Assembly: GCF_001039005.1 (NCBI RefSeq)
Contig: NZ_LDWR01000011.1
Coordinates: forward strand, 186,001 to 250,000
DNA from: Burkholderia cepacia
Lineage (GTDB): Bacteria > Pseudomonadota > Gammaproteobacteria > Burkholderiales > Burkholderiaceae
DNA length: 64,000 nt
Reading direction: 5' to 3'
Positions within the stretch are counted from its first letter, which is position 1, and every line of letters begins with the position of its first letter. Shown in pieces: positions 30,376 through 49,425 of the stretch. A program made the position numbers and the translations under genes. Below the pieces are notes generated by a model. That model worked only from the letters and a program-made list of their open reading frames with translations. It was not told the DNA's origin and did no database searches.

Positions 30376-31776
<1,401 letters not shown>

Positions 31777-42909: not shown

Positions 42910-43080
42910 TTATGCCTTCGGCAACTGGCTCGCGATGTAGGTGAACGCCCCCGAGATGCCAGTCGTCAACGAACCGACGGCAGTGACGAGAGCAACGGCG
43001 ACCAGTCCGGCGATGAGTCCGTACTCGACTGCGGTAACCCCGTTTTCTTCCTTAAGGAAACGCTTGATGATTGCTTTCAT
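42910..43080 (-). CDS. flp: Flp major pilin
   Basis: 56-residue prepilin: leader MKAIIKRFLKEENG, predicted cleavage after Gly14, then VTAVEYGLIAGLVAVALVTAVGSLTTGISGAFTYIASQL. The EY pair at mature positions 4-5 (VTAVEY) is the Flp motif. Only one flp copy is present. It is the first gene of the Tad operon. Its leader (43081-43250) contains a TATAAA-like stretch at about 43115, but I cannot define the promoter with certainty. Confidence 0.95.
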   Translation of the reverse strand: MKAIIKRFLKEENGVTAVEYGLIAGLVAVALVTAVGSLTTGISGAFTYIASQLPKA

Positions 43081-43505
43081 TTTATTCCTCGTGCCTGTAT
43101 TTACGTTCTTTGGCCTTTTATACGTATACATCCCCGCATATCTGGCCCTTGCCCCGCGTCGTTCGCCACATCTGCCGTAGCGTCAACCGGGTGCGCTTTC
43201 TTTATAGGTCGCCCCGAAGGGCATGTCTCACGATTTGATGCAAGTTAACATTCGCGATAGTGACCCTCCTCGAACGTTGTGTACCGAACCGTACATTTGC
43301 TTACATCTGCTCCGGATTCTATATCCGATCCTATTTAACTTCCAACCTCTTTTAACGACATGGATCGAAAAAAATGACCGTGAGCACAACGTATTTGTAC
43401 GGCGTTTCGGTACGTCTTACACATAGGATTTACGATAGGTTAGATGTGCACACCTAATCCACCAGTAAAACAATTGCCCTGTCCACCAAGCCCGCAGGGG
43501 CCCCA
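43081..43505. other. AT-richer intergenic region upstream of flp
   Basis: Part of a 677-base gap between divergent flp and the repeat lipoprotein. Clearly less GC-rich than its surroundings. It holds an inverted pair of related elements (TGTACGG...TTCGGTAC-type) at about 43276-43293 and 43397-43413, and a GCCCC/GGGC mini-hairpin at 43211-43222. No gene with a credible start is seen. Confidence 0.45.
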
Positions 43506-43557
43506 CGTTACGTCGCACGCGTAACGCCAATGTTGTGACGTTACGTTACGAAACGTC
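43506..43557 (+). promoter_or_regulatory. Tandem palindromes, candidate enhancer (UAS) of the sigma-54 promoter
   Basis: Site A: CGTTACG (43506-43512), seven-base spacer, CGTAACG (43520-43526), a perfect inverted repeat centred at 43516. Site B: GACGTT (43537-43542) and AACGTC (43552-43557) with matching CGT/ACG inside, centred at 43547, also containing two CGTTACG heptamers. Centres are 31 bases apart, close to three helical turns. They lie about 190 and 160 bases before the expected start site, the usual place for activator binding. Binding by the Tad-locus activator is inference. Confidence 0.7.
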
Positions 43558-43679
43558 CGAAACCGTTCTCATTCGTCTGCTCTTAAACAGATTCAACAAT
43601 CTTTCAATTTCCATAACTTCCTTTTCCGACAAGGAATTGCCTCGTTTAAAACCTGTTGTCGAACCGTCGGGCATCGAAA

Positions 43680-43695
43680 TGGCACGACAGTTGCA
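43680..43695 (+). promoter_or_regulatory. Consensus sigma-54 promoter
   Basis: TGGCACGACAGTTGCA matches the TGGCACG-N4-TTGCA consensus exactly, with GG and GC elements correctly spaced. The predicted start site is near 43706, about 50 bases before the lipoprotein ATG. It faces the repeat-lipoprotein and TpsB genes. Confidence 0.9.
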
Positions 43696-43757
43696 GAGTA
43701 GTCCTCGCACCACTCAACACAACGAAGTTCACAAGACATTTTTAATGCGAGGATGAA

Positions 43758-45503
43758 ATGGACATCAAGGTTATCCCTCATGGCGTGTTCCGGACGACTC
43801 TGATCGCGGCCACCGTTGCAGCCATGCTTTCCCTCTCCGCGTGCGGCGGCTCCGGTTCCATCAGCCAAGGCCTCGGCGGCGGCTCGAGTTCGGGCGGCAG
43901 CGATGCGCTCTCCACGTCGGGCGGCGGCGGCTCGGGCACGAGCGGCACCTCCGGCACCAGTGGTACGTCGGGCACGAGCGGAACCTCCGGCACCAGCGGC
44001 ACCGGCACCTCGGGAACGAGCGGCACGTCCGGCACCAGCGGTACCTCGGGAACGAGCGGCACCTCCGGCACCTCGGGTGTGTCGTCGAACGCAGTGGGAA
44101 CTGTCCTCGCAAGCGGCAGCAATATCGTCACGGGTGTCGGCGGGACCGTCTCGGGTCTCGGCACCGTCATCTCCGGCCAGTCACTGCCGGGCGTCAACCC
44201 GGCCACCACGCAAGCCGCGGGCGGCATCGTGCAAAGCGTAGGCGGCGCCGTTACCGCACTCGGCAACGGCCTCGGCAACGGTCTCGGCCAACTCGGCGCG
44301 ACGAAGGATCCGATCGGCACCACGGTCGCCAGCACGGGCGGCGTGGTCAATCAGCTCGGCGGCGCAGTCACGCAGACGGGCAACCTGGTCACGAGCCTCG
44401 GCAGCGGCCCGCTGTCGCCGCTTGCACCGGTCACGGGTGCCGTCGGCGGCCTCGTGTCGACGCTCGGCGGCGCCGTATCGAACGGCGGCAACACGCTCAC
44501 CAACGCGCTGTCGACCGGCCCGATCCAGCAGGTCACGCAGACGGTCAGCTCGGCCATCACGCCGATCACGACGATGGTCGGCCAGACGACCCAGACGATC
44601 GGCACGGCGACGGGCCTCGGCGCGCCGGTCAACACGCTGCTCGGCACGATCGGCAATGGCCTGAACCAGGCCGGAGCGCTGCTCGCGTCGACGGGCGGCA
44701 ACCCAGTCACGACGGGCCTCGGCAACACCGTCTCTTCGACCGGCAACACCGTGAAAGCCGTCGGCGGCCTGCTCACGGGCGGCACCGGTGGCGTGACCAA
44801 CCCGCTCGCACCGCTCACGGGCCTCGTCTCCACGGTCACCGGCGCACTGGGTGGTGCAACGGGTGGCGGCAGCGGCCCGCTCGCCCCGGTCACCGGCCTC
44901 GTCTCCACCGTCACCGGCGCACTCGGCGGCGCAACGGGCGGCGGCAGCGGCCCGCTCGCTCCGGTCACCGGCCTCGTCTCCACCGTCACCGGCGCACTCG
45001 GCGGCGCAACGGGTGGCGGCAGCGGCCCGCTCGCTCCGGTCACCGGTCTCGTGTCCACCGTTACCGGCGCACTGGGCGGCGCAGCAGGCGGCAGCGGCGG
45101 CCCGCTCGCCCCGGTCACCGGTCTCGTCTCCACGGTCACCGGCGCACTGGGTGGTGCAGCAGGCGGTAGCGGTGGCCCGCTCGCCCCGGTCACCGGCCTC
45201 GTCTCCACGGTCACCGGCGCACTGGGCGGCGCAACGGGCGGTACGAGCGGCGGCCCGCTCGCTCCGGTCACGGGTCTCCTCGGCGCAGTCACGGGCGCAC
45301 TCGGCGGCGCGACGGGCGGCTCGGGCGGCAGCAGCCCGCTCGCTCCGGTGACGAACGTGGTGTCCACGGTCACCAGCGCGGTCGGTGCACCTGCATTGAC
45401 CGGCGGCACGGGCGCAGTCACGAACTCGGGCTCGTCGTCGAATCCGCTCGCGCCCGTCACGTCGCTGATCGGCGGCCTGCTCGGCGGCACGCACGGCAAG
45501 TAA
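43758..45503 (+). CDS. Repeat-rich lipoprotein with collagen-like and 25-residue repeats
   Basis: 581-residue surface lipoprotein. Lipobox LSAC with Cys29 and Gly at +2, so probably outer membrane. Residues 60-107 are Gly-Thr-Ser triplets with Gly at every third position, collagen-like in form. The middle has degenerate Gly/Thr/Val-rich repeats. Residues about 355-505 are six 25-residue units of the form GLVSTVTGALGGATGGGSGPLAPVT, then a decayed seventh. Composition is almost free of charged, aromatic and Cys residues, which suits a flexible stalk or adhesive matrix. Start has GAGGA four bases upstream. First gene after the sigma-54 promoter. The function is unknown; an adhesin or biofilm matrix role is inference. 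Confidence 0.8.
   Translation: MDIKVIPHGVFRTTLIAATVAAMLSLSACGGSGSISQGLGGGSSSGGSDALSTSGGGGSGTSGTSGTSGTSGTSGTSGTSGTGTSGTSGTSGTSGTSGTSGTSGTSGVSSNAVGTVLASGSNIVTGVGGTVSGLGTVISGQSLPGVNPATTQAAGGIVQSVGGAVTALGNGLGNGLGQLGATKDPIGTTVASTGGVVNQLGGAVTQTGNLVTSLGSGPLSPLAPVTGAVGGLVSTLGGAVSNGGNTLTNALSTGPIQQVTQTVSSAITPITTMVGQTTQTIGTATGLGAPVNTLLGTIGNGLNQAGALLASTGGNPVTTGLGNTVSSTGNTVKAVGGLLTGGTGGVTNPLAPLTGLVSTVTGALGGATGGGSGPLAPVTGLVSTVTGALGGATGGGSGPLAPVTGLVSTVTGALGGATGGGSGPLAPVTGLVSTVTGALGGAAGGSGGPLAPVTGLVSTVTGALGGAAGGSGGPLAPVTGLVSTVTGALGGATGGTSGGPLAPVTGLLGAVTGALGGATGGSGGSSPLAPVTNVVSTVTSAVGAPALTGGTGAVTNSGSSSNPLAPVTSLIGGLLGGTHGK
43935..44078 (+). repeat. Gly-Thr-Ser triplet repeat coding region
   Basis: Encodes 15 GTS triplets interrupted once by a GT slip (after the seventh). 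Codons alternate (GGCACCTCC, GGCACCAGC, GGCACGAGC), giving a block structure that would favour slippage or recombination. Confidence 0.85.
44821..45270 (+). repeat. Six tandem 75-bp repeats in the lipoprotein gene
   Basis: Units begin at 44821, 44896, 44971, 45046, 45121 and 45196, each exactly 75 bases (25 codons). A diverged seventh starts at 45271. Identity between neighbours is high at the DNA level. Copy number may vary between strains. Confidence 0.9.
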
Positions 45504-45543: not shown

Positions 45544-46965
45544 ATGTCCCAGCAACGTTCCCTCACGACGGCCGCCCTGCGCCAGTGGCGCGTGCCCCTC
45601 ACCGCCTTCGCCGCAGCCTGCCTGCTGGCCGCCTGCGGCGGCGGCGGCGTCAGCTCGCCGCCGACCAGCAGCAACAACGGCCCGAGCAGCGCGAGCGGCA
45701 CGCCCAGCACGAGTGGCACCAGCGGCACGTCGACCGGCACGAAGGGTGTCGTCAGCACGGTCGGCCAGACGGCCACTGATCTCGGCAGCACGGTTGGCAA
45801 CATCAGCCTGCCGGGCCTCGGCGACGGCGTGACGAAGGGCGTCGGCAGCACGCTCTCCAGCACCGGCACGATCGTCGGCGCAGCTGCCGATGCCGTGAGC
45901 AACGGGCTGGGACAGATCGGCTCGACGAAGGATCCGGTCGGCACCACGGTTGCCGGTCTCGGCAATGTCGTCGGTGCCACGAGCAACACGGTGTCCGGCC
46001 TGAGCTCGACGGTCAAGGCGCTCGGCACGGGCCCGCTCGCGCCGCTCGCGCCGGTCACGACCCCGGTCGGCACCGTGCTCGACACGGTCGCCAACGGCCT
46101 GACGGCCGCCGGCACGACGATCGGTTCGACGCTGTCGTCGGGTGCCGTGCAGCAGGTTACGCAGCCGCTCAGCTCGGCGATCACGCCACTCGTGATCACG
46201 GCCGGCCAGGTCACGCAACAGGTCGGCACGACGACCGGCCTCGGTCAACCCGTCTCGGGCCTGCTCGGCCAGGTCGGCGGTGCGATCAGTTCGGCCGGCA
46301 AGCAAGTCGGCGGCACGTCGAGCCAGCTGCTCGTCGGCGACGTCGGTCAGCTCGTGACCGCGGTCGGCAACACCGTGACCAACGCGGGCGGCCTCGTCAA
46401 CCCGAACGGTCCGAACGGCGCGGCACCGATCCCCGGCCTGATCACGAGCCTCGTCGGCGGCTCGACGGCTAACGTCCAGAACGGCACGTCGTCGGGTTCC
46501 GGCTCGACGAACCCGCTCGGTGGCCTGCTGTCGGGTCTCGGCTCGACGCCGCTCGGCTCGCTCACGGGCGCACTTGGCGGTGCAGCGGGCGGCTCGGGCA
46601 GCGGCCCGCTCGCACCGGTCACCGGCCTCGTCTCCACGGTTACCGGCGCACTCAGTGGCGCAGCCGGCGGCAGCGGCGGCCCGCTTGCCCCCGTCACGAA
46701 TCTCGTGTCGACGGTCACCGGTACGCTCGGCGGCGCAACGGGCGGCGCAGGCAGTGCAAACCCTCTCGCGCCGGTCACCGGTTTGCTGAATACTGTCACG
46801 GGGGCAGTCGGCGGTGCAGCGGGATCCGGGGGCTCGAGCCCGCTCGCGCCGGTCACGTCGCTGATCGGCAGCGTCTCGGGTACGGCATCGTCGGGCGGCG
46901 GCTCGACAGGTCTACTGGCGCCGGTAACGGGGTTGCTGGGCACGCTGGGTAGCGTTGGCAAGTAA
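45544..46965 (+). CDS. Second repeat-rich lipoprotein, paralogue of the first
   Basis: 473 residues. Lipobox LLAAC with Cys31 followed by Gly. It shares the layout and many motifs of the preceding protein: GTSGTSTGTKG near the N-terminus, GLGQIGSTKDPVGTTVAGLG, LAPLAPVTTPVG, QQVTQPLSSAITPLV, and C-terminal GPLAPVTGLVSTVTGALSGAAGG-type units, here only about four and less regular. Clearly a duplication, without the long triplet stretch. GAGGAG is six bases before the ATG, 40 bases after the first lipoprotein gene, so they form an operon. Confidence 0.8.
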   Translation: MSQQRSLTTAALRQWRVPLTAFAAACLLAACGGGGVSSPPTSSNNGPSSASGTPSTSGTSGTSTGTKGVVSTVGQTATDLGSTVGNISLPGLGDGVTKGVGSTLSSTGTIVGAAADAVSNGLGQIGSTKDPVGTTVAGLGNVVGATSNTVSGLSSTVKALGTGPLAPLAPVTTPVGTVLDTVANGLTAAGTTIGSTLSSGAVQQVTQPLSSAITPLVITAGQVTQQVGTTTGLGQPVSGLLGQVGGAISSAGKQVGGTSSQLLVGDVGQLVTAVGNTVTNAGGLVNPNGPNGAAPIPGLITSLVGGSTANVQNGTSSGSGSTNPLGGLLSGLGSTPLGSLTGALGGAAGGSGSGPLAPVTGLVSTVTGALSGAAGGSGGPLAPVTNLVSTVTGTLGGATGGAGSANPLAPVTGLLNTVTGAVGGAAGSGGSSPLAPVTSLIGSVSGTASSGGGSTGLLAPVTGLLGTLGSVGK

Positions 46966-47110: not shown

Positions 47111-48796
47111 ATGAAATCCAGACTCGACAGATGGATGATGCTGCTCGCCATCGCGGCAGCAAGCACGGCACAAGCACAAACGCGCGTCGGAGGTAACCCG
47201 CTCGACTCCCTGCCCCAGATCAACGCGCCGAAAACCGGCCCGAACGTCACCGTGCAGGTCGCGCCCCAGGCACCGCAACTGCAGGAGCTGCTGTCGCGGC
47301 GCCTGACGCCGAAGACGTTCCAGGTCGAAGGCGTGAAGTCGGTGCCGTTCGACGAAATCTCGCGTCGCTTCACGCCCCTCGTCGGCAAGGACATCACGAT
47401 CGGCGAGCTGATCGAAACCGCCAACGGCGTGACAAAGCTCTACCAGGATCGCGGCTACGCGCTGTCGTTCGCGTTCGTTCCCGCGCAGACGTTCGAGAAC
47501 GGCGTCGTGCGCATCACGGTTGTCGAAGGCTACGTGTCGGACGTCAAGGTCACCGGCAAGCCCGGTGCGATGGAATCGAAAATTCGCGCGATCGCCGCGC
47601 ATATCACGGCCGATCGCCCGCTGCGCCGCGCGACGTTCGAGCGCTATGTGAATACGTTCGGCCTGCTGCCCGGCCTTACGGTGAAGGCGAACGTGCCGCC
47701 GCCGCAAACCACCGACGGCGCCACGACACTCGAGCTCGCGGTCGACCGCAAGCCGTTCAATGTCAGCACCGGTATCGACTTCAATCACCCGGGTGTCCAG
47801 GGCCTCATCACCGCGACCGAAAACGGCCTCACGTCGTTCGGCGAGCAACTGAGCATCTCCGCGCTGGCGCCGCCGGGGCGGGACAAGCAAACCTATTTCG
47901 CGTTCAGCGGTGCGGTGCCCGTCGGCAGCAGCGGCCTGATCACGCGCCTCGACGCGAGCACCTATCGCGGCAAGCCGACCGACAACCCGGGGCTGCCGTC
48001 GTACGTCCAGCGTACGGTCAAGAACGAAAAGCTCGGTCTTTCGGCATCCTATCCGATACTGCTGAACAACCAGCGCAGCCTGCTCGGCACGGTATCGGGC
48101 TACGCGGCGCACAACGAAGACAATTACCAGAACCAGATCAACGGCGCGACGCTCGACAACCGGTCGCAGGTTCGCGTGCTGCAACTGCAACTCGACTACA
48201 CGAACGTCCAGCCGAAACAGGTGCGAAAGCTGAGCGTCAACGTCGCCAAGGCGTTCGACATCCTCGGCGCATCGAAATCGCAAATCGGCACGAACGGCGG
48301 CACCACGACGACCTATGCCGACCCGACATCTCTGACCTTCGTGCGCACCGGCGCGACCTTCACGCAAACCAACGAATGGCCGTTCCGGATCGGCACGTCG
48401 GTTTCGCTGACCGGGCAATACAGCCCCGACTCGCTGCCGACGTCCGAGCAGATCTCGTTCGGCTCGACGCGCTACGCGCTCGGCTATCAGCCCGGCGAAG
48501 CATCGGGCGACTCGGGATGGGGGATGTCGCTGGAGGTCAACCGCGGCTTCACGCCGGGCTGGACATACATGAAATCCGTCACGCCGTACATCGCGTATGA
48601 CATGGCGCGCGTGTATCTGCACGCGGGCACGCCATCACCGAGCCGCATGTCGTCGGTCGGCATCGGCGTGCGGTTCACCGACAGCCGTTTCTACAGTCTC
48701 GACCTGAACGTCGCGAAACCCGTCGGCGATGCGCCCGTGGAAAGCGCATCGCGCAGCCCGCGCATCAACGCAGCATTCTCGTATCAGCTCAACTGA
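47111..48796 (+). CDS. TpsB-family outer-membrane transporter (FhaC/ShlB-like)
   Basis: 561-residue two-partner-secretion pore. Signal peptide (MLLAIAAASTAQA), a short linker, then POTRA-type domains: LTPKTFQVEGVKSVPFDEISRRFTPLVGKDITIGELIETANGVTKLYQDRGYALSFAFVPAQTFENGVVRITVVEGYV. A 16-strand barrel region with alternating aromatic residues runs to a final ...RINAAFSYQLN. The barrel contains an FNHPGVQG start and VRFTDSRFYSLDLNVAKPV near the end. No large filamentous TpsA gene is adjacent; the upstream neighbours are two repeat lipoproteins. Terminator follows at 48806. Confidence 0.88.
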   Translation: MKSRLDRWMMLLAIAAASTAQAQTRVGGNPLDSLPQINAPKTGPNVTVQVAPQAPQLQELLSRRLTPKTFQVEGVKSVPFDEISRRFTPLVGKDITIGELIETANGVTKLYQDRGYALSFAFVPAQTFENGVVRITVVEGYVSDVKVTGKPGAMESKIRAIAAHITADRPLRRATFERYVNTFGLLPGLTVKANVPPPQTTDGATTLELAVDRKPFNVSTGIDFNHPGVQGLITATENGLTSFGEQLSISALAPPGRDKQTYFAFSGAVPVGSSGLITRLDASTYRGKPTDNPGLPSYVQRTVKNEKLGLSASYPILLNNQRSLLGTVSGYAAHNEDNYQNQINGATLDNRSQVRVLQLQLDYTNVQPKQVRKLSVNVAKAFDILGASKSQIGTNGGTTTTYADPTSLTFVRTGATFTQTNEWPFRIGTSVSLTGQYSPDSLPTSEQISFGSTRYALGYQPGEASGDSGWGMSLEVNRGFTPGWTYMKSVTPYIAYDMARVYLHAGTPSPSRMSSVGIGVRFTDSRFYSLDLNVAKPVGDAPVESASRSPRINAAFSYQLN

Positions 48797-48832: not shown

Positions 48833-48963
48833 CGATTAGAGTCCCCTCTATCAAACGTCGCGCGCGGTTTCACGTATTCTGGCGAAGCTCGCAACATGCC
48901 CGCCCCATGCAGACGGTCGTGCGGGCGCATCGAACACGACATGCAAAAACAAGGAGGATGACA

Positions 48964-49425
48964 ATGATTCAACTGACCCGCCCGTTGCGCGCGATGGCTG
49001 TCGCCGGCGCATTGCTCGCCTGTGCTGCCCACGCATTCGCACAAGCCGACAACCCAATCGGCATGTGGCAGACAATCGACGACAATACGGGCAAGCCGAA
49101 GGCACTCGTGCAGATCGCCGACGACGGAGAAGGTGCGTTGTCGGGCAAGGTCGTCAAGGGCCTCGGCGCGAACGATACGCCCGATCGCCGCTGCACCGCC
49201 TGCTCGGACGAGCGCAAGGATCAGCTCATCAAGGGCATGACGATCATCAAGGCGATGAAGAAGGACGGCGATCACTGGGACGGCGGCAACATTCTCGACC
49301 CGGAAAACGGCAAGGTCTACAAGTGCAAGATGACGCTGGAAGACGGCGGCCAGAAACTTGTCGTGCGCGGTTACATCGGCGTGTCGCTGCTCGGCCGGTC
49401 GCAGACCTGGGTTCGCCAGCAATAA
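48964..49425 (+). CDS. Secreted DUF2147-family protein
   Basis: 153 residues, signal peptide (AMAVAGALLACAAHAFA) and the DUF2147 core: PIGMWQTIDDNTGKPKALVQI, a CxxC pair (RRCTACSDERKDQLIKGMTI), GGNILDPENGKVYKCKMTLEDGG and VRGYIGVSLLGRSQTWVR. The ATG at 48964 is chosen since AGGAGG ends just before a nearer ATG at 48958 and has proper spacing to this one. Function unknown; family proteins are periplasmic. Followed by a terminator. Confidence 0.85.
   Translation: MIQLTRPLRAMAVAGALLACAAHAFAQADNPIGMWQTIDDNTGKPKALVQIADDGEGALSGKVVKGLGANDTPDRRCTACSDERKDQLIKGMTIIKAMKKDGDHWDGGNILDPENGKVYKCKMTLEDGGQKLVVRGYIGVSLLGRSQTWVRQQ

Follow-up and report, generated by a model that had tools for sequence, protein, structure and literature searches.

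A predicted GtrR-responsive, sigma-54-dependent control region between the Tad pilus operon and a collagen-like adhesin operon in Burkholderia

GtrR of Burkholderia cenocepacia, the product of BCAL1536 (PMC9684580, PMC12838280), is the partner of RpfR in BDSF/c-di-GMP signalling. BCAL1536 has been described as an enhancer-binding protein whose mutant was attenuated in a rat model (PMC5295037), and its gene lies inside the Flp cluster, BCAL1525-1537, part of which showed roughly two- to three-fold lower expression when cepR was mutated (PMC2753556). As far as the available text of the GtrR literature goes, the protein binds target-gene promoters and acts on cepI, bclACB serving as the reporter, with no mention of a sigma-54 site, a GTTACG motif or a target among collagen-like lipoprotein (CLP) and TpsB genes. 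Within the same genus, the BerB-RpoN-berA switch of B. cenocepacia sets an RpoN site, TGGCACGTAAATCGCT, and an enhancer-binding protein over a biofilm function (PMC5552954). BerB, like GtrR, interacts with RpfR (PMC9684580), but it differs from GtrR in being reported to bind c-di-GMP and in being encoded near the bep cluster (PMC5552954).

GtrR also has an AAA+ sigma-54 domain and a Fis-type helix-turn-helix (HTH) in common with the FleQ/NtrC-type enhancer-binding proteins, which act from tandem upstream sites. FleQ/NtrC-type enhancers sit 100-200 bp upstream, and FleQ-type activators carry an arginine motif (LFRS) before Walker A that binds c-di-GMP. The system considered here departs from that type in its variably arranged GTTACG half-sites, in a serine where the aspartate is expected, and in its linkage to Tad genes.

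On the side of the target genes, the Bcc collagen-like lipoproteins (Bcc-CLP) BCAL1524, BCAL1523 and BCAM0695 match, by domain, order and neighbours, the genes that we propose are driven by this system (PMC10224339). B. cenocepacia induces Flp genes along with BCAL1520, BCAL1523 and BCAL1524 upon contact with host-membrane vesicles (PMC7970998), and bcal1523, bcal1524 and bcam0695 were singled out as highly induced upon host-membrane contact in the Bcc-CLP paper, the main text of which does not contain the words “sigma” and “promoter” (PMC10224339). No report of this promoter appeared in the titles or abstract openings of open-licence PMC papers on Tad/Flp, sigma-54 and GtrR, and a GtrR DNA code with its targets was not found in the available text of the open-licence PMC literature searched. 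The kind of system is already known; what would be new relative to that literature is the activator's code and its targets.

The window, by which we mean the whole 64,000-nucleotide stretch analysed (C13:186001-250000 of the genome), contains two divergent gene sets whose starts are 677 bp apart. The gene order of BCAL1520-1537 (PMC10224339, PMC2753556) and DNA matches indicate that the genus is Burkholderia. On the minus strand, the BCAL1525-like flp pilin gene (42910-43080, coordinates set by eye) opens the Tad operon, with the Tad genes following in order here and in related loci. On the plus strand, the first gene encodes CLP1, a collagen-like lipoprotein (43758-45503; PF15984 Collagen_mid, E 1.3e-67) that is BCAL1524-like by gene order (PMC10224339), followed by the BCAL1523-like CLP2 (45544-46965; PF15984, E 1.3e-62) and a BCAL1522-like TpsB/ShlB-type outer-membrane transporter with POTRA_2 and ShlB domains (47111-48796). 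The likely end of the unit is a gene for a small protein, a BCAL1520-like putative lipoprotein (48907-49425, plus strand), for which tblastn found relatives next to this unit elsewhere, in other genera; its membership in the operon is likely on the pattern of PMC10224339. These domain matches agree with the preliminary description, in which the downstream unit consisted of lipoproteins and TpsB, and they add a point absent from it, namely that both lipoproteins are collagen-like. Separately, we observe that a TpsB-type transporter is co-encoded with two collagen-like lipoproteins, for which Pfam gives only Collagen_mid.

At the far end of the Tad operon, where a sigma-54 activator had been placed, a minus-strand gene (30376-31767) indeed encodes a protein with the AAA+ sigma-54 interaction domain (PF00158, E 9.9e-62) and a C-terminal Fis-type HTH (HTH_8, E 2e-11). 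Its GAFTGA-type loop reads GSFTGA, a version carried by 19 of 46 activators, the other 27 having GAFTGA. GtrR is 463 aa long, and its cloning primers encode an MRNTPA start and a TRESE-stop end (PMC8174753); the window protein is also 463 aa, and its ends (MRTTPA...TRESE) are one residue off those encoded by the primers. Judged by its length, both termini and its place in the Flp cluster, the Tad-operon activator is the ortholog of GtrR/BCAL1536 of B. cenocepacia. Its N-terminus is receiver-like, with a serine at the expected position of the phosphorylated aspartate in all 46 activators (position set by eye). We saw no FleQ-like LFRS motif before Walker A in the window protein, as judged by eye.

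Upstream of CLP1, the sequence TGGCACGACAGTTGCA (43680-43695, plus strand) matches the sigma-54 (RpoN) -24/-12 consensus, as had been described, with a start predicted near 43706. No second exact TGGCACN5TTGCW occurs in the window. Across the genome, exact matches to TGGCAYN5TTGCW numbered 16 compared to 11 for the reversed control, and by sequence alone such a match is weak evidence; it is conservation that carries the case. We aligned 37 upstream regions, all from the same genus, these being the 37 of 61 genomes searched that matched the upstream DNA. The -24 GG and -12 GC cores, 10 bases apart, were intact in all 37, and the full 16-mer was identical in 29. This argues that the match at 43680-43695 is a real sigma-54 promoter. 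Of the 16 strict genomic matches, none but this one had at least two exact half-sites (GTTACG or CGTAAC) within 280 bp upstream.

Those half-sites form two candidate enhancer sites. Site A (43506-43526) is the inverted pair CGTTACG-N7-CGTAACG, with half-sites at 43507-43512 and 43520-43525; the exact pattern occurs once in the window and once in the 8.84 Mb genome, and GTTACG and CGTAAC were both retained in 37/37 genus sequences around a variable spacer. Site B (43539-43550, plus strand), CGTTACGTTACG, consists of overlapping direct half-sites at 43540-43545 and 43545-43550 and was identical in 36/37. Taken together, the half-sites and the promoter's two elements were 0.99-1.00 conserved (0.996 together) compared to 0.83 for the whole intergenic region, and none of 20,000 random sets of equal-length blocks from the intergenic alignment was as conserved (mean 0.83).

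The preliminary description had instead posited two palindromes about three helical turns apart. The first is site A, and it stands. The second, centred on 43547, does not: its would-be 3′ arm (43551-43557) matched the window base in only 0.68 of alignment cells vs. 0.83 for the intergenic region. Because this arm is not conserved, the three-turn phasing of palindromes does not hold, and the half-sites are spaced 13, 20 and 5 bp from centre to centre. We also considered an alternative second site with the spacing of site A, GTTACG-N7-CGAAAC (43545-43563), and rejected it, as conservation of its right arm was only partial within the genus and, judged by eye, absent from other genera. A genome-wide search for CGTTACG-N7-CGTAACG found the exact copy at this locus and no other. 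Matches to the palindrome with up to two mismatches numbered 47 genome-wide vs. 96 for the control, and paired half-sites were found in 6 and 6 places vs. 9 and 9 for the reversed controls, which is no enrichment. Paired half-sites in this genome stand out only where a sigma-54 match follows.

Other features of the intergenic region deserve mention in their own right. A near-palindrome, TTAGATGTGCACACCTAA (TTAG-N10-CTAA, 43440-43457), was 0.95 conserved over 43439-43459 in the 37 genus sequences and may serve either divergent operon. A TGTAC-N6-GTACA palindrome (43280-43295) was retained in most of 25 genus sequences and was gone in two (L041 and L042). Upstream of flp, a conserved TTTATA-like block together with TTTGATGCAAGTTAACATTCGC (43198-43262) is possibly the Tad operon's own promoter region. 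Facing flp, no sigma-54 match scoring at least 9 was found on the minus strand of 43050-43520, the only match there scoring 7 and falling inside site A; in the 4 of 36 relatives checked, no flp-facing match scored at least 8.

We interpret this intergenic region, with a probability of roughly 80%, as controlling an adhesion operon that depends on sigma-54; from here, GtrR and RpoN would turn on a small surface-adhesion regulon. In this model, GtrR, made from the last gene of the Tad operon, would bind the GTTACG/CGTAAC half-sites, which precede the -24/-12 promoter by about 130-175 bp. By analogy with its protein family, it would assemble as an AAA+ ring and, through DNA looping, activate the RNA polymerase-sigma-54 waiting at 43680-43695, thereby turning on CLP1, CLP2, TpsB and the lipoprotein gene. 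Expression of the pilus operon would thus supply the activator for a second surface-adhesion unit. GtrR may also act in trans on at least two further promoters conserved in the genus, those of a BCAM0695-like remote CLP gene and of a gene for a 132-aa winged-helix regulator. Going by the GtrR literature, signal input would come via RpfR, BDSF and c-di-GMP, with DNA binding under c-di-GMP control (PMC12838280).

The activator is found past the genus as well: at E <= 1e-90 it was present in 41/41 genus genomes, 168/299 family genomes and 8/250 order-level genomes. These last eight are the genome studied here, two more from its family and five that belong to four other families. Our first comparison set comprised 20 loci from other genera, fetched around the activator gene. 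In all 20, Tad genes, a GtrR-family gene and a divergent CLP gene were syntenic, with TpsB present in 18. A sigma-54 match lay upstream of CLP in 20/20, counting one locus with a corrected start (L049) and two with a small ORF in between (L063 and L064), and at least two GTTACG/CGTAAC half-sites lay upstream of CLP in every case. The exact N7 palindrome was rejected as a family-wide marker, having been found in 8/258 genomes outside the genus, none of them near the activator. Outside the genus, site A usually has a spacer extended by one base (by match length in 24 non-genus composite matches), which is why the exact pattern misses other genera, and we replaced it with a composite pattern allowing the longer spacer. 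This composite site occurred once per genome in 65/299 family genomes (41/41 of the genus plus 24 others), all 65 of them activator-positive, and in 0/131 activator-negative genomes, with the reversed control found in 4/299; because the genomes are related rather than independent, the events behind these counts are fewer than the counts themselves.

We compared 40 upstream regions representing 14 genera, families or paralog groups. In all 40, CGTAAC/GTTACG occurred at least twice, which was true of no other 6-mer; the next non-overlapping 6-mer reached 10. Because some of these promoters were hand-picked, we repeated the test over whole loci on both strands, taking loci of at least 15 kb with a GtrR-family gene from outside the genus and asking for a sigma-54 match with at least two half-sites located 60-280 bp upstream. 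This pattern was present in 41/44 loci, whereas control hexamers (40 of the 180 with the same composition) averaged 4.2 and peaked at 17 out of 44. The three loci without it were L068, an orphan paralog; L081, with one exact half-site and a TGTAAC near a sigma-54 match; and L088, where the CLP gene was not found in the stretch. Half-site spacing differed between genera (N7, N8 or overlapping), which is unusual for one fixed dimer site.

The same half-sites may serve in both directions in some genera. In all 10 loci from genera g27, g29 and g48 (L065, L066, L069, L072-L074, L077-L079 and L092, with the activator gene oriented minus), a minus-strand sigma-54 match faced the Tad operon and had two or more half-sites 123-280 bp upstream of it; these genera were examined after an earlier hint. 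Because one set of half-sites would serve this divergent match as well, GtrR probably activates its own operon there too, an arrangement found neither in the window nor in the 4 relatives checked from our own genus.

Taken alone, co-occurrence at a locus fits any protein encoded there as well as it fits GtrR. It is conceivable, if unlikely, that the sigma-54 promoter is real while the half-sites are read by something else, either a repressor or another enhancer-binding protein, with GtrR acting elsewhere. The conserved TTAG-N10-CTAA palindrome in the same intergenic region would suit such a reading, as would the 14 other enhancer-binding proteins that we found in the genome and the fact that GtrR binding is a prediction. 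However, the best helix match among the nine of these 14 with a readable HTH shared 7/14 residues with GtrR (the other five fell outside the stretch examined). Among the GtrR-family activators themselves, 13 recognition-helix residues were identical in 46/46, though overall identity drops to about 52-60%, and a 14-residue version was found in 42/46. The genome has no close GtrR paralog, the next match being at E 1e-54 with 42% identity over the ATPase part; with no paralog better than this, we set aside BerB as the half-site binder. Moreover, the half-sites lie 130-220 bp upstream of sigma-54 matches, which is a typical position for an enhancer and argues against this alternative.

The motif also accompanies a GtrR paralog away from Tad. 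In one genome (G168, L067:432-15465), a second activator, 59% identical, ends a same-strand run of exopolysaccharide genes that we infer to be one operon, consisting of manC, a Bac_transf sugar transferase, Poly_export, Wzc and an AraC-type regulator. Within that 20 kb, we found no match for cpaF, cpaB, a prepilin-peptidase-like gene, CLP1, TpsB or lp. Three half-sites lie 137-152 bp upstream of a sigma-54 match before manC. Because the paralog's non-Tad exopolysaccharide genes carry half-sites, the motif appears to follow the protein rather than the Tad locus. With the paralog sites, the near-invariant helix, the 41/44 loci and the 65/65 activator-positive composite genomes taken together, we strongly infer that the lipoprotein/TpsB unit is driven by the activator of the Tad operon, bound to these sites. 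This is the part of the preliminary description that survives; its two phased palindromes do not, and it had missed the identity of the activator as GtrR and its other targets.

These other candidate targets came from the genome itself. Besides this locus, sigma-54 matches followed paired half-sites at three places: C68, C90 and C13:267048. At C68 (L046:1-3400), a gene for a 764-aa collagen-like lipoprotein lies beside a divergent carboxymuconolactone decarboxylase gene, an arrangement also described for BCAM0695/BCAM0696 (PMC10224339); CGTAAC, GTTACG and the sigma-54 match of this remote CLP gene were retained in 30/30 aligned sequences (L124-L153). Of the three genes singled out on host-membrane contact, bcal1523 and bcal1524 fall in the unit driven here and bcam0695 matches the C68 target. 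At C90 (L161:888-1550), the gene encodes a 132-aa Trans_reg_C winged-helix protein in which Pfam gives no receiver domain, and GTTACG, two CGTAAC, CTACGTAACA and the sigma-54 match were retained in 5/5 sequences (our own genome and four named Burkholderia records). C13:267048, also with half-sites and sigma-54 matches, is a fourth candidate; a conservation search of plasmid records, which probably include few first chromosomes, gave no Burkholderia record. The remaining collagen-like gene (L045) showed no element in the 2.4 kb examined, where the contig ends inside the gene and the promoter lies beyond it. Membership in a GtrR regulon is thus predicted for these genes from their half-sites and promoters.

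A published target of GtrR, bclACB, fits this picture less readily. It has been used as a GtrR reporter and probe, with target promoters described in general terms (PMC8174753, PMC12838280). We scanned it in four Burkholderia sequences (L180, L172, L176 and L177) from -600 to +900 (+670 in L172) of the EMSA forward primer, with the reverse primer found in 2/4, and there was no GTTACG/CGTAAC and no sigma-54 match scoring at least 9. Binding of bclACB itself by GtrR was reportedly part of PNAS work from 2017. Given the lack of a conserved site, the published effect may be indirect, or GtrR may read a second kind of site, or binding may occur via RpfR. One could go further and hold that GtrR mainly depends on RpfR and binds promoters lacking a sigma-54 element, as published for bclACB, and that the promoter here answers to another activator, for example BerB or NtrC. 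A review does report RpfR-GtrR on target promoters and its control of cepI (PMC12838280). Still, bclACB itself lacks a conserved site, GtrR retains the sigma-54 interaction domain, and its gene was present in 20/20 syntenic loci (albeit loci fetched around that gene), and we consider this explanation very improbable.

That a consensus-like sequence and an unrelated palindrome fell together here by chance, without function, has in its favor that near-palindromes were rarer in the genome than their control and strict sigma-54 matches just slightly commoner than theirs (16 vs. 11), but conservation in the genus and recurrence across families of the order leave this next to no credibility.

Beyond the control region itself, we tentatively put forward a broader idea, which we would rate a little short of an even bet. 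Although filed as a quorum-sensing regulator, GtrR may in essence be an RpoN activator dedicated to that role, reading a GTTACG code of its own; this code and the coupling of Tad pilus and CLP would predate the split of several Burkholderiales families, and the module would have been reused for exopolysaccharide genes. In some genera the activator would use that enhancer to drive its pilus operon too, an arm lost in Burkholderia, and the bclACB and cepI effects would be indirect.

Our analysis gives a virulence-associated regulator an explicit predicted binding code, a sigma factor and a short list of targets, and it would connect the pilus operon and BDSF/c-di-GMP signalling with the collagen-like adhesins that are induced on contact. 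It also calls into question the status of bclACB as a direct target. Finally, the rule of half-sites plus a sigma-54 promoter can be scanned for in any Burkholderiales genome.
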